Assembly: GCA_031265845.1 (NCBI GenBank)
Contig: JAISCC010000148.1
Location: 1 to 64,000, forward strand
Reading direction: 5' to 3'
Length of the DNA stretch: 64,000 bases
From: Treponema sp.
GTDB taxonomy: Bacteria > Spirochaetota > Spirochaetia > Treponematales > Breznakiellaceae
The stretch's first letter is position 1. Every line of letters begins with the position of its first letter. Position numbers and translations under genes: made by a program. The notes under the pieces were generated by a model. The model did not search any database and was not told where the DNA came from. It saw only the letters and a program-made list of their open reading frames with translations. Positions 16,646 to 55,210 of this stretch are shown piece after piece.

Positions 16646-17554
16646 TTAGTTATCCCAACCAACGGTCTTTTCCGTTAGGTCATAGGGATATTGTTGAACG
16701 ATAAATCTGCCGTTTGTTAGGGAGGCGCGATAGTCGTCTGCGGTGTTATAATAACCGGTGTAATCACCGCTCATCGACTCAAAGTATTGAACGTTGGTCT
16801 TGCCGTCAATTTCAGCCGGTTTAAGATACACCAATTTTATTTGGGCATTCCATGCGTATGTTCCAGTCGCGCTATTGCTGTGGCTATCGGTGTAGGTATA
16901 GCCTGCGCCAGAAAAAACATACGTGCTGGCCGATCCATTAAAGGTTTGCCCGTCCAGTTCATTCGCGCCGTTGTTTGACGGCAATTCTTCTGACATGAGC
17001 AGGGCCGCTCCTTCTGCGGCAAAAATATAAGCGAATATTGTATTGGCAAACGCTTCATTCACCCTATAATCAATATATGCGGACATGCTTGAAAAGCCCA
17101 TGCCGGCAAGCTCTTGGTCTAACGCAGCTTGCCCATTTTTTGCTTTGAATTTATCAATCTCCTCTTGAAAGGCGCTTCTGTACCCTGTCCTATCCAGCAA
17201 GGCGCCATAGCCGGAGTAGTCTTCCAACAAAATAGCAATTTTAGCCGGTTTGAAAACCACCTTTTTTGATGAATCATCCCACGAATAGCTTCCGTTTTCA
17301 ATTTCGGTGTAGGTGTATTTCCCGTTGCCGTCGTATACATAGTCCCCATCTTCGTCAGTTGTTGGCGTAGATTTCTTATAAGTTCCGCTTTCGGCAAATT
17401 CAATTTTTTGGCTATACATAAAATACGTTTTGCCGCTCAATTCGTTTTCCCCTACATTGCCATCGCCGCCGCCGTCATCGCCGCAACCCGTCAAAACCAA
17501 TCCGAATGTCAGCAGAATAGCCGCCATTCCCGTAAAAAACACTCTCTTTTTCAT
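16646..17554 (-). CDS. Lipoprotein with duplicated beta-rich domain
   Basis: The ATG at 17554 follows GGAGGACAGTT and begins a lipoprotein signal with lipobox LVLTGC; Cys is near residue 23, followed by an acidic DDGGGDG linker. The rest (about 302 aa in total) shows two related modules. One begins NELSGKTYFMYSQKIEFAES and the other NELDGQTFNGSASTYVFSG. Each ends in a GxYxW-x-(7-8)-VxxKPAxI motif, which points to internal duplication. No enzyme motifs were found. It is probably anchored in the outer membrane or periplasm. Upstream of DUF4469 gene A on the same strand, it may be co-expressed with it. Confidence 0.8.
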   Translation of the reverse strand: MKKRVFFTGMAAILLTFGLVLTGCGDDGGGDGNVGENELSGKTYFMYSQKIEFAESGTYKKSTPTTDEDGDYVYDGNGKYTYTEIENGSYSWDDSSKKVVFKPAKIAILLEDYSGYGALLDRTGYRSAFQEEIDKFKAKNGQAALDQELAGMGFSSMSAYIDYRVNEAFANTIFAYIFAAEGAALLMSEELPSNNGANELDGQTFNGSASTYVFSGAGYTYTDSHSNSATGTYAWNAQIKLVYLKPAEIDGKTNVQYFESMSGDYTGYYNTADDYRASLTNGRFIVQQYPYDLTEKTVGWDN

Positions 17555-17692: not shown

Positions 17693-18623
17693 CTATAACC
17701 GCTATGCGGTCAAACCGCCCGTACGGGCAAGGTTCCTGTGTTAAAGCGGGAGCGAGTCCCGCGCGGGAGCGGCTCACGCATCCCGTCGCTCTCCAAATGG
17801 CGCGTATCTGCGGAGCGTCCGCTTGCGTCCGCAACCAGCCGGCCATTTCTATTCATTTCTATACGGCGTTGGTTTGCGGCGCATGAGTTCAAAGGGATTT
17901 TCAAGACATCCGCCGACGTTGCCACGCCTGTTATGGGAGAGAAAAATGCGCCCGCGCTTCGCGCATATAAAAAATGTCGCTCTTTGCAATATAAGACGCA
18001 GTTTAAAAAATATGGGGGGGGGGGGGGGCGTACCGAATCGCGCCGCCGCGTCATCGCCCAACAGCTTGTTCACTTTTTTATCTACGCTCCTTTTGAAGGT
18101 TTTTGATGTTTGCAAAAACAATTATATACGTTATTACCGCCATGTGTCAACATCCTTGTGAAATAAATGAGAAAAAAGTGTGAATGTAGGCTGTCAGGAA
18201 GTTGACAAGAACGCTACGAAGCCCATAATCGAGCGCATGGGGGGCGATGCGAGGCGGATTGAGTCGCAAAGATGTAAAATATGCCCTCATGGGTAAATTT
18301 TTTATACTCATCTGACACTTTTTTACCCATGAAGACAAAACAGGATAGTTTAGACGGAAAGCGAAAAGACAGACGCGGCTCACAATTCCGCCAATGTGAA
18401 TGGCCCCGGCTTTCACTATGCGACAACACTCTCTCTTAAATCATGGGCGTCACTTTTTGCGAAACCGCGTTGCAGTCAGGGACGAGACTTTGAAACAAAG
18501 CCTTTTCGCCGCTTGGCAGGTTTGCGGACTGCTAGACGATCCCGCATGGATTTTGTATCATAGCTTGAATCCGGCTCGGCGGCCGGAGTAAAACACACGA
18601 CAGAACAAAGAAAAGGAGCGTAT
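17693..18623. other. Long intergenic stretch with a poly-G tract
   Basis: No gene with a credible start and family was found. The overlapping ORFs (17704-18161 on both strands) arise from GC-rich sequence around a G15 tract. A partial CATCTGACACTTTTTT motif occurs near 18308. The region just before icd should hold its promoter; TGTATCAT near 18555 is only a weak -10 candidate. Confidence 0.45.
18014..18028 (+). repeat. Poly-G tract of 15 (locus A)
   Basis: Fifteen consecutive G residues follow TTTAAAAAATAT. No clearly coding frame crosses the tract. It is the first of three G tracts of the same length and strand in this window. Confidence 0.85.
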
Positions 18624-39672: not shown

Positions 39673-39764
39673 GCTAAACTCTCGACGCTACGCTTACGAA
39701 TGTCTCGAAACTACGCTTGCGAGAGTCTCGATACTACGCTTTCGAGGATTTCGACGCTACACTT
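39673..39764. repeat. 23-bp direct-repeat array at the stop of DUF4469 gene B
   Basis: On the minus strand, four consecutive 23-bp units start with AAGYGTAG at 39764, 39741, 39718 and 39695. The first unit includes the stop codon TAG of the DUF4469 gene (39757-39759). Units diverge mainly in the middle and end. The period equals that of the array in locus C. Confidence 0.82.
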
Positions 39765-40479
39765 GATCCGTCGGCACCGTCAATGCCACGCTGAACTCCG
39801 CGATGTGCGGCTTCTTGACCTCCGTCCCGCTTCCCGAATACTGCGTGACAAGCCTCAACGTCCACTCCCCGGCGGCCAGAGCCGGTATCATCACGATCAC
39901 TTCCGACGGCTTGTTCTCCACCATGTCCGTTATGTCCACCTTCACTTCGCTTCCGTCCGCTCCCTTGAAGTACACCCCCACAGACGGATCGTCCCCCGTA
40001 ATCTTGAGCTTGCTTCCATAGATGCGGAGCGGGCGCCCGGGCGTGAGCAGATTGTTCGCCGAGCCGCTTTTCACGTCCGTTACCGACGCGATGAACGCGC
40101 CCGTCTGTCCGGGCTGAACCTTCCTGGTCTTCACCTGATCCTCGACGCTCCGCAGACTCGCGCCCTCGCTCAAGTGTATCTTGACGCGATGCCGTTTTGG
40201 GTCGAAACTGTCCTCAGCGCCTGAGAACACGCCCTGGACGCTGGGATAGGCGTTAAAGAGATCGGTCGTAACGGCCTCGCCATCCGCGAGCATGGCGTAA
40301 ATGACCTGCTTTTCCGCCTCAAGCACGGAAAGCACGTCGCTGCGGGTGAGACCCGCGCCTGTTTGCAGGATGCGGTCGATGACCGCCAATTGATTGCGGG
40401 ATATGACATTGACCGTTTTGGCGCGCATGTCGTCCGGATTGGTTGTAAGCTCGTTAAGCTCCAAACTATACTCAAGCAT
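39757..40479 (-). CDS. HU-like DNA-binding plus DUF4469 protein (paralogue B)
   Basis: The ATG at 40479 sits behind a perfect AAGGAGG; the track's 50-residue extension (with CPPPPPL) crosses a poly-C tract and is rejected. The 240-aa protein has an N-terminal HU/IHF-like half (MLEYSLELNELTTNPDDMRA, GLTRSDVLSVLEAEKQVIYA) and a C-terminal DUF4469 half (LTPGRPLRIYGSKLKITGDD, VIVMIPALAAGEWTLRLVTQ). It is clearly related to paralogues A and C but shares little outside the conserved core. A G15 tract lies about 90 bp upstream, in the presumed leader or promoter. The 3' end runs into a 23-bp repeat array. Confidence 0.85.
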   Translation of the reverse strand: MLEYSLELNELTTNPDDMRAKTVNVISRNQLAVIDRILQTGAGLTRSDVLSVLEAEKQVIYAMLADGEAVTTDLFNAYPSVQGVFSGAEDSFDPKRHRVKIHLSEGASLRSVEDQVKTRKVQPGQTGAFIASVTDVKSGSANNLLTPGRPLRIYGSKLKITGDDPSVGVYFKGADGSEVKVDITDMVENKPSEVIVMIPALAAGEWTLRLVTQYSGSGTEVKKPHIAEFSVALTVPTDQV

Positions 40480-40567: not shown

Positions 40568-40582
40568 GGGGGGGGGGGGGGG
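40568..40582 (+). repeat. Poly-G tract of 15 (locus B)
   Basis: Fifteen G residues (poly-C on the coding strand of DUF4469 gene B) lie 89-103 bp upstream of its ATG. Length change here could alter promoter spacing or the leader. Poly-G tracts near promoters are known to modulate transcription of tpr genes in Treponema pallidum. Confidence 0.85.
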
Positions 40583-52014: not shown

Positions 52015-52752
52015 TCATTCCACGACAACAGCGAGGGGCAGGGCGTAGGTTATGGCGCGGGGGTCTTGCACCAGCGTTTTTGCGCTGGAGAAGCGGGTTA
52101 TGATCTTGAGCGTATACGAGCCTGCGGCAAGCGCCGGGACGCGGACTATCAGCTTCTTGGGCAGGTTCTCCGTTATCTTGTGCGTAACCGGATGTTCCAC
52201 GCCGGACTCGTCAACAAAGAATACGCCCAAGCCGCTCTCGTCTTCCGGCGCTATCTTTATCTTGTCTCCGGTTATCAAAATGTCTTCGTCCGGCGTTATC
52301 GCGCCGTCCGTCCTGCCTGTGGCGATGTCCGTGACCAGGGCGATGTAGCCCGCGCCCTCCTTTTCGCCCAAGACCTCAACGCCCACGGTTTCGAGCGCGG
52401 CGCGCATGTCAGCGGTGAGGCTCGCGTCGACGCCCAGTTTGTGGACTTTGGGGTCGAAGGCGCGGGAGGCGCCGAGCCACGCGCCGCTCACGCGGGGGGA
52501 CATGCGGACGCAGCCGTCCTGAACTGCGGTTCCCTGCAACAGGGACTTTCGGACGATCTCGTCGCGGGCCGTGAGGATGCTCATGATGGTTTCGAGGCGG
52601 AGTTCCGAGCGCTCGGCGACGACGCGGGCCGCGATGTCCTTGTTGTGGATGGTGGAGCCGGCGGTGGAGACTTCGGCGACGAAGTCGTTTTCAATGTCTT
52701 TGGTGAGGCGGTTTGGCGTGAGCCAGACCTTCCAATAGGTTTCTTTTGCCAT
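52015..52752 (-). CDS. HU-like DNA-binding plus DUF4469 protein (paralogue C)
   Basis: The ATG at 52752 follows AAGGAAGG; the track's 59-residue extension is rejected. The 245-aa protein has an HU/IHF-like N-terminal half (VWLTPNRLTKDIENDFVAEV, TIHNKDIAARVVAERSELRL, VRMSPRVSGAWLGASRAFDP) and a DUF4469 C-terminal half (ITPDEDILITGDKIKIAPED, LIVRVPALAAGSYTLKIITR). It has no signal peptide. The flanking genes are a DUF1566-like lipoprotein and the phase-variable outer-membrane protein, on the same strand. A terminator-like hairpin (52784-52806) separates it from the lipoprotein. Confidence 0.85.
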   Translation of the reverse strand: MAKETYWKVWLTPNRLTKDIENDFVAEVSTAGSTIHNKDIAARVVAERSELRLETIMSILTARDEIVRKSLLQGTAVQDGCVRMSPRVSGAWLGASRAFDPKVHKLGVDASLTADMRAALETVGVEVLGEKEGAGYIALVTDIATGRTDGAITPDEDILITGDKIKIAPEDESGLGVFFVDESGVEHPVTHKITENLPKKLIVRVPALAAGSYTLKIITRFSSAKTLVQDPRAITYALPLAVVVE

Positions 52753-52783
52753 AATTTCCTTCCTTAAGTAAGATATAAAATAA

Positions 52784-52806
52784 CGGAGGGGGCTTGCGCC
52801 CCTCCG
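52784..52806 (-). terminator. Hairpin between lipoprotein and DUF4469 gene C
   Basis: CGGAGGGG (52784-52791) and CCCCTCCG (52799-52806) pair perfectly with a 7-nt loop. On the minus strand it is followed by TTATTTTATATC, so it could act as a weak terminator or attenuator, as in locus A. Confidence 0.55.
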
Positions 52807-52828
52807 GGATGAACTGAATAACGGGGCG

Positions 52829-52839
52829 GTGTCAGACAC
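52829..52839. repeat. Single GTGTCAGACAC palindrome
   Basis: An isolated perfect copy of the RAYT-associated core lies in the lipoprotein-DUF4469 spacer of locus C. Confidence 0.7.
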
Positions 52840-52951
52840 CCGCCAGCCGTTTGCGTTTACCAACAAAATTTGGCGCCAGGCGCCCTTGCGCTTATCCAGA
52901 TAAATGGCGGGGCCTGTCCCCGCCTTCACACATACCGCCTACCCTCGCGGC

Positions 52952-53558: not shown

Positions 53559-55063
53559 TCATTTGACTTTTCCAAACCTATAGATCAAGTTTATGGATCC
53601 TTTGTGATTAACCCCTTTGAAATCTGTCCGCACTGAATAACTCACATCAATGGCGTTGATGAGCAAAAAGCCCGCGGCGGCATTAAAGGTGTGAGCCACC
53701 GCGCGATTGTCATAGTCGCCGAACCTGTAATCGGCTATCATGCAACCGTAACCAACTCCGATGTGGAACCCGAACTTGCTACCAAGTTCCCTATGGCTAT
53801 CATCGAAAGGTATAAACGCGCTTGCCCGTATATAGGGGTAGTATGAGTTATAGGACAAGTCTTTGATATAATCGGCGTTGCTAAGAAAGCCGAAGTCGCA
53901 ACCCAGATCAACATAGGCGGCAGCAACAATGGGTATAGTTATATTCGGGCTCAGGGTCAAACGCGGCGTTAGAAAAGTGGAGCCAAAAGCGGAGCCTATG
54001 CTCAAGCCCGCGCTCCAGTATGACAAAGGATAACCCTTCTTTAGTACATTCCCTATAGCCCGCTTAACATCCTCCCTTTTCCGCCGCGCCTCCTCCTTTT
54101 TCCGCGCCGCTTCCTTTGCCGCCGCCCGCTTTTCCACAGCCTTGTCTTGTCCGGTAAGTTTCAGCGCAAGCTCTTCCATTATTGCCAAGCCGTCCTCAAG
54201 GCTTTGATAATTAACCGAATCCCCGGCTTCCTGTATTCCGGTTTCAAGATTGACAACCGCCGCGTTGAACATGGCGCGGGCGCCCAGCCGCCGCGCCGTT
54301 ACAGACAGCGCGAGCCGCGGGTTGCCCGCCTTCCCTATAGCGGGCAGGTACTCGTCCGCCGTATCGCCGTTAAACTGATTGCCGTACTCTTCCAGCACCT
54401 GCTCAAGGCTCTTGGTGCGCGGATACACCGCGTATGCGCCGCTCTGTATCAGGTGTACCGCCAGTATCTGCGCCAGCGCGTCCGCCTCGCGGCTGTCCGC
54501 CCCTTCCGCCAGTTGCACCGGCGGAAGCGCGAGCAGGGGCAGTTTCGACGTGTCCTTCTTGACCGCCTCGGCGATGTTCCGCGCCATGGCGGGCAGCTTG
54601 CCGTCTATCTCCTCGATAGTCCGGTAGGTCTCGATGCCTCCGGCTATCTGCTGGAGGTTTTTCATGCGCAGTATGGCGATGATCAGCAGGTTCTGATCGC
54701 CTAGTGTGGTGATGGTTCCCGCGACCACGTAGTCCGCGCTGAGATGCTTTCCGAGCGCCGCGATGGTGTCAGGGTCGGTCATGCCGGACTCCATCTGGAA
54801 GCCCCGCTCGTTGCGTATGGCGCGGGTGATGCTGGTGCGCGGCACCGGGCTGAAAACGGCGGTCAGGTCTTTCTGAAAGGAGAAGAGTTCGGCGATGGTC
54901 TCTCCGTCTTCACCTTGGGCTCCGGTGAAGGGGAGGATGGCGAGCGTGTCTTTCGCCTGCGCGTTCGCGGCGGAGCTTAGAGCGAAAAGAAGGAGGAGGA
55001 GATTACAGAGAAACCGCCCCGTGCGGGGGGGGGGGGGGGCAAACCGGAAACTGTTTTATACAT
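53559..55063 (-). pseudogene. Phase-variable outer-membrane protein, CsgG/LpoB-like plus beta-barrel (OFF as sequenced)
   Basis: The true start is ATG 55063, six bases after AAAGGAGG. Codons 1-8 lead into 15 consecutive C. With 15 C the frame runs into TAA about 16 codons after the tract. With 13 or 16 C it continues through a signal peptide (GRFLCNLLLLLFALSSAANA) into the long ORF, giving 500 or 501 residues. The mature part begins KDTLAILPFTGAQGEDGETI and has two CsgG/LpoB-like domains (ALGKHLSADYVVAGTITTLG; a second near residue 190). A coiled coil follows (KRAAAKEAARKKEEARRKRE), then a C-terminal membrane barrel (YWSAGLSIGSAFGSTF) ending GSINLIYRFGKVK. The track start (GTG 54845) lacks signal and RBS. 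It is listed as broken because this assembly is out of frame; switching, not decay, is the favoured reading. Confidence 0.85.
55025..55039 (+). repeat. Poly-G tract of 15 inside the start of an outer-membrane protein gene (locus C)
   Basis: On the coding (minus) strand this is C15, spanning codons 9-13 of the gene that starts at 55063. Length modulo 3 decides the reading frame: 13, 16 or 19 C read through, while 14, 15 and 17 stop early. Confidence 0.9.
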
Positions 55064-55181
55064 AAAAAGCCTCCTTTGGAGGGGTTGTTAAAATGCGCCT
55101 CGCTACGGAGGCGGCTTCTTTGCAGAAGCGGCGTTTCTGGAAGCTACACTGGAAGCTGCGCTTCTTTACGAAAGCGTTCAT

Positions 55182-55210
55182 AGCATAGCATAATTTGCCG
55201 CGTGTTTCAA
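55182..55210 (-). promoter_or_regulatory. Promoter of the phase-variable gene
   Basis: On the minus strand, TTGAAA (55205-55210), a 17-bp spacer and TATGCT (55182-55187) lie about 120 bp upstream of the ATG. The leader in between has several short repeats of GGAAGCT/AGAAGC type and a GCCTCCGTAGCGAGGC hairpin. Confidence 0.65.

Follow-up and report, generated by a model that had tools for sequence, protein, structure and literature searches.

A gene on the minus strand of a 64,000-nucleotide stretch of genome G000 (hereafter the window, meaning the whole of the DNA analyzed) is best read as a translationally phase-variable outer-membrane protein gene, with a probability of roughly 0.8; switching between cells, export, insertion of the barrel and the function of the protein are inferred. 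According to this model, replication slippage would alter a C tract located between the start codon and the signal peptide in single-base steps. Of the three tract phases, one would join the ribosome-binding site and ATG to the signal peptide, so that a two-domain LpoB/CsgG-like beta-barrel protein could be made and exported, and the other two phases would stop translation at most about 20 codons from the tract. The assembled copy (C15) is predicted to be OFF and one slip away from ON, and its tract would be part of a genome-wide set of about 180.

The start region and reading frames of the gene comprise the following elements, in window coordinates:

55182..55210, minus strand: promoter-like site TTGAAA-N17-TATGCT, with 9 of 12 consensus bases matched
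55069..55077, minus strand: Shine-Dalgarno sequence AAAGGAGGC, with the ATG 5 nt further on
55040..55063, minus strand: ATG (55063) and the eight pre-tract codons, MYKTVSGL
55025..55039, minus strand: C15 tract of exactly 15 C, the proposed slipped-strand switch
53559..55024, minus strand: post-tract frame of the putative outer-membrane protein, accessible in just one tract phase out of three (hexamer coding score 286.7)

An earlier note on this DNA had placed a C15 tract between the start codon and the signal peptide and had predicted that 13 or 16 C would open a long frame. Both claims were borne out, the succession being AAAGGAGGC, the ATG at 55063, eight codons and C15 at 55039-55025, i.e. 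21 nt past the start codon and 142 nt 3' of the -10-like site. As sequenced, the ORF reads MYKTVSGLPPPPPARGGFSVISSSFFSL and then stops, after 28 codons in all. Any tract length of 1 mod 3 yields instead an ORF of 500/501 codons that includes the signal peptide, has no internal stop and ends at 53559, with 487 codons added by the post-tract opening phase, versus 19-29 codons in the other phases. Two details of the note had to be corrected: the early stop is real, yet it lies 15 codons beyond the tract rather than about 16, and the ribosome-binding site is strong as described, whereas the supposedly near-perfect promoter is only a fair one. A similar site (TTGCAA-N17-TATGCT/TATACT) can be read at the equivalent position 5' of two tract-bearing homologues, one at C78 (L065) and one in G006 (L243), and the Shine-Dalgarno-ATG layout is common to tract-bearing and tract-free homologues. 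Dinucleotide shuffling gives an expectation of 0.34 C runs of at least 9 per 64 kb, and the window contains three C15 runs; the tract at 55025-55039 is thus not unique, being one of these three and one of 179 C/G runs of at least 10 in the genome.

The gene has several close paralogues in G000 and more in related genomes. Over the first 300 residues the family members are alike; the C-terminal part diverges, being similar in L031, an FGE-sulfatase in L034 and L070, and unknown in the others. Five members, representing four species and two genera, have a C tract in the interval from the ATG to the signal peptide: the window gene (C15), a G000:C78 paralogue that is 77% identical to it (C14 at the equivalent site), and copies in G002 (C16), G006 (C14) and G063 (C14), the last belonging to the other genus and having its tract in front of a lipoprotein signal. 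The comparison across relatives proposed in the earlier note therefore recovers a tract that varies from C14 to C16 at the equivalent site and is not fixed at an in-frame 13 or 16. The signal peptide, whose absence from intact homologues would have counted against the proposal, is present in them. Closer tract-free homologues (C78:7410-8366, L032/L223 and L033/L037) have an equivalent Shine-Dalgarno-ATG followed by an uninterrupted frame into the signal peptide, and in a G082 member (L224) the tract site is occupied by an in-frame C7, suggesting that the tract probably arose by expansion of a short C run that encoded proline, in frame, after the start and ahead of the signal peptide in an ordinary family member.

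Comparison of the window copy with the G000:C78 paralogue, both tract-bearing, gives a dN/dS of 0.38 overall (0.30 in the N-terminal domains and 0.34 in the barrel), with about 490 codons open and no stops in each; in the signal peptide region the value is 0.21 against the tract-bearing G002 copy (22 codons). The low overall ratio and the lack of stops imply that both G000 proteins are made and selected, now or until recently. Slipped-strand phase variation of the window gene, as put forward in the earlier note, is thus supported by a tract site kept in five copies, by tract-free relatives that are in frame and by intact ORFs under purifying selection. One counterpoint is that all five tract-bearing family copies are out of frame as assembled, for which the chance is about 0.13 if the phases are equally likely.

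Two family members have further peculiarities. A third paralogue (L065:1624-3504, G000:C78) carries, fused in frame, the opening 31 codons of an HU-DNA_bdg/DUF4469-type gene (compare window 52015-52929), a swap of the start region that would free it from a tract. In G002 (L043), besides the C16 after the ATG, a C10 run lies directly 5' of the Shine-Dalgarno sequence and is a possible second switch.

The post-tract frame encodes a product of 492 aa (P0001) with a hydrophobic signal peptide at its start. Its predicted organization is as follows:

54954..55025, minus strand: signal peptide region, P0001 residues about 5-28, kept in homologues
54558..54953, minus strand: first LpoB/CsgG-like domain, residues 29-160 (Pfam LpoB 3.8e-6; Foldseek LpoB, GNA1162, TolB and LPHT-ring chain)
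54150..54545, minus strand: second alpha/beta domain, TolB-N-like, residues 165-296 (Pfam TolB_N 0.0099)
54036..54146, minus strand: long helix or coiled coil, residues 298-334 (low-confidence AF2 model; composition)
53562..54035, minus strand: probable 8-stranded outer-membrane beta-barrel, residues 335-492 (low-confidence model, pLDDT 51)

The claim of two CsgG/LpoB-like domains holds in part. The Pfam LpoB profile (PF13036) is matched with 27.3 bits against a cut-off of 22.3, though only over profile positions 73-113 of 147, and the NCBIfam LpoB equivalog is far from reached (20.6 vs 110.55). Pfam CsgG (PF03783; E 4.7e-4) falls just under its cut-off (20.0 vs 20.8 bits), and TolB_N (PF04052) likewise stays below its own in P0001, though it reaches 2.5e-5 in the homologue L034. 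The mature chain was modeled with AF2 from a shallow alignment; the first domain has a pLDDT of about 80, and TolB, LpoB, GNA1162, HpaA and an LPHT-ring chain are among the best Foldseek matches. These matches and the Pfam LpoB hit are what P0001 shares with the periplasmic LpoB, CsgG and TolB-N domains; it differs from them in having two such domains in tandem, followed by a coiled coil and a barrel. The C-terminal 158 residues, modeled from two sequences, form eight main strands, and their best PDB matches are the OmpX, NspA, Ail and OmpA barrels, which they resemble in length as well; unlike those barrels the region is without a sequence match, and confidence in the model is low. Arrival of the product in the outer membrane is inferred, not shown. 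A PDB sequence search with P0001 returned nothing relevant, an Rfam scan of the 64-kb window gave no match, and the genes adjoining the tract-bearing gene presented no functional link.

Genome G000 harbors 179 places with at least 10 C/G (84 preceded by G and 95 by A/T), and its 169 C runs of at least 13 are the highest number among 392 genomes sampled across the phylum, most of which have 0-5. Loss of mismatch repair was rejected as a cause of this load, since MutS1 and MutL are present and intact. Positions and orientations were counted for the 112 tracts separated from the nearest contig end by 250 nt or more, with genes and start codons taken from a simple hexamer-based finder rather than a curated annotation. 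Only 15 of the 112 lie inside coding stretches, versus 79% of the sequence being coding, and the strand with the C is the sense strand of the gene 3' of the tract in 74 cases vs 23 (p 2e-7). A TTGAC-N-TATA promoter occurs at most 220 nt upstream on the C strand of 38/112 tracts, against 1 on the opposite strand and a random rate of 1.9%, and a Shine-Dalgarno sequence with a start codon open to the tract is found in 30/112 (random 12.4%, p 3.5e-5). Genes 3' of tracts are enriched in signal-peptide-like starts (33/71 vs 98/386, p 5e-4) and in lipoboxes (19/71 vs 36/386, p 2e-4), and in several lipoprotein genes (C5, C46 and C60) the tract comes soon after the lipobox. The upstream regions of at least 43 tracts form one similarity cluster with a common promoter-leader layout. 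An independent related species, G001, has the same mode of 15 (36/56), a similar orientation (25 vs 10) and promoters in a proportion of 10 vs 0. Altogether, the roughly 180 tracts suggest that a non-pathogenic spirochaete, inferred to be a termite-gut Treponema, carries an exceptionally extensive repertoire of putative stochastic on/off switches.

The two other C15 runs of the window are:

18014..18028, minus strand: second C15 tract, in the leader of lipoprotein gene 16649-17554, behind TTGACA-N18-TATAAT (12/12)
40568..40582, minus strand: third C15 tract, 88 nt 5' of gene 39760-40479, behind TTGACA-N17-TATACT (11/12)

Elsewhere (L192 near 2256, the G000:C143:42172 tract), a leader-type C15 lies 239 nt 5' of a gene for a probable argininosuccinate synthase, an identity read from the N-terminal sequence without a family search, indicating that the tracts are not confined to surface genes.

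Tract lengths in the sampled regions of G000 (n=183) peak sharply at 15, with 11 tracts of 13, 35 of 14, 89 of 15 and 17 of 16, and only 12 runs of 8-9 C/G were found in these regions. When genomes were classed by how many of their runs reach 10, 13 and 17 bases, tracts were mostly of 13-16 C in G000-G007, G021 and G024 and mostly of 10-12 C in G008, G009, G018 and G023. One modal length per genome, differing between species, is what would be expected of fast slippage to an equilibrium. The idea that all tracts derive from an inserted C15 cassette of fixed size was rejected on account of the species-specific mode and the C7 seed of G082 at the family's tract site. Near-identical flanks with different tract lengths were not used as direct evidence of variation, the sole pair (C67/C150) being located at contig ends that share assembly overlap.

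These lengths also bear on an explanation without switching, in which the DNA of the tract is effectively fixed and slippage of RNA polymerase or of the ribosome on the C run yields a constant low amount of in-frame protein in every cell. Long homopolymers are known to cause transcriptional slippage (PMC1088944), a precedent that comes from an analysis of A/T runs, and constant low expression could account for five family tracts that are out of frame as assembled in genes that are nevertheless conserved. However, tract lengths differ between paralogues and species, and a modal length that is genome-wide and species-specific points to slippage of the DNA. In-frame tract copies found at other loci are a further argument against this explanation, which is considered unlikely.

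A second alternative is that the gene is ordinary and constitutive, the homopolymer length being wrong in the assembly and the true length in frame. Contigs do break at tracts (71 of the 183 are no more than 118 nt from a contig end), so that assembled lengths are good to about one base (+/- 1), and a single extra base would put the window copy in frame. In G000, G007 and G021, many contigs have a C/G tract within about 118 nt of one of their termini, and true tract numbers are therefore probably higher than those counted. Yet with one base added throughout, neither the paralogue nor the G002 homologue would come into frame, and the 26 start-proximal tracts of G000 open at n, n+1 and n-1 in 3, 14 and 9 cases. 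Moreover, a run of C14-C16 at the tract site should be prone to slippage even if its assembled length is off by one, and an assembly artifact is judged quite improbable. No bias towards OFF at the modal length is claimed from these counts, as 3/26 tracts are ON in G000 but 4/11 in G001. Decay into a pseudogene, or the neutral, functionless growth of a mutable tract, can be set aside as very improbable in spite of the OFF state of the assembled window copy and of the many tracts in the genome, some of them inside or antisense to genes, given a dN/dS well below 1 between two OFF-phase copies with 490 stop-free codons each, a site kept in several species, and the enrichment in promoters, sense orientation and exported proteins.

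Phase variation by homopolymer slippage has been studied mainly in a few pathogens. The phase-variable reading of the window gene has its closest counterpart in the ORF-internal homopolymer switches of Neisseria and Campylobacter, where one-base slippage in an early G/C tract likewise shifts the frame of a surface gene (PMC5084427, PMC6321876). In N. meningitidis 115 genes have been validated, counting all repeat types (PMC5084427), and C. jejuni has a median of 20 tracts per genome, of which 52% are 9G and 30% are 10G, a clustering around one value per genome that the G000 set shares (PMC6321876). The G000 set differs in its mode of 15 rather than 9-10, in its number of about 180 and in its host, an uncultured and apparently non-pathogenic spirochaete. 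Among spirochaetes, the tprE/G/J, tprL and tp0126 genes of Treponema pallidum are similar in being outer-membrane protein loci with a poly-G/C tract; their poly-G tracts lie in promoters, vary in length within isolates and affect transcription, whereas the window tract, between start codon and signal peptide, would affect the reading frame (PMC7864442). A promoter switch of the T. pallidum type, which requires a tract in or beside the promoter and 5' of the transcription start, does not fit the window tract, since the tract is downstream of both the -10-like site and the start codon. Nothing relevant on phase variation in termite-gut treponemes was found in the literature searched.

The window gene taken singly would belong to a known kind of switch; what surprises is the size of the repertoire. 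If the tracts do switch, surface-protein heterogeneity would be a major feature of uncultured symbiont populations, and, the presumed insect host being without adaptive immunity, phage, competitors or host-niche selection could be the drivers. Annotators should be aware that tract genes are likely to appear as truncated or absent genes in many assemblies.

In 66 cases the gene start lies more than 30 nt past the tract (leader-type tracts). In 14 of these 66, one post-tract frame terminates between -3 and +8 nt from the start codon that follows, whereas shuffled sequences give 3.8 +/- 1.6 such cases and never more than 8. The shortest of the frames that follow a sense-strand tract is reduced as well, at 10.3 nt vs 23.5 nt after shuffling (0/200). 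When leader ORFs were tested for protein-level selection, most families lacked an excess of third-position changes, and leader peptides are therefore not claimed as functional proteins. These patterns could reflect a lineage-wide cassette, consisting of a promoter, a ribosome-binding site, a short leader ORF and about 15 C, placed before many genes. One phase would leave the leader open up to or overlapping the next start, allowing translational coupling, and the others would stop it at once, the outer-membrane gene being the version fused directly to its protein. This generalization is tentative and somewhat more likely to fail than to hold; coupling gated by a leader-type tract is in itself a reasonable hypothesis, not an established one.

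At the window tract 40568-40582, an upstream ATG and the gene 3' of the tract share a single open frame in one phase. This gene and L102 are paralogous (MLEYSLELNELT...), each with a C15 88-104 nt before its start and with similar leaders. In another genus (G137), two members of one protein family (L241 and L253) have a leader ORF, MTQKPRN.SY..ELV, that runs into C15/C14, and their tracts, about 75-130 nt 5' of the gene, represent the leader-type version of the switch.
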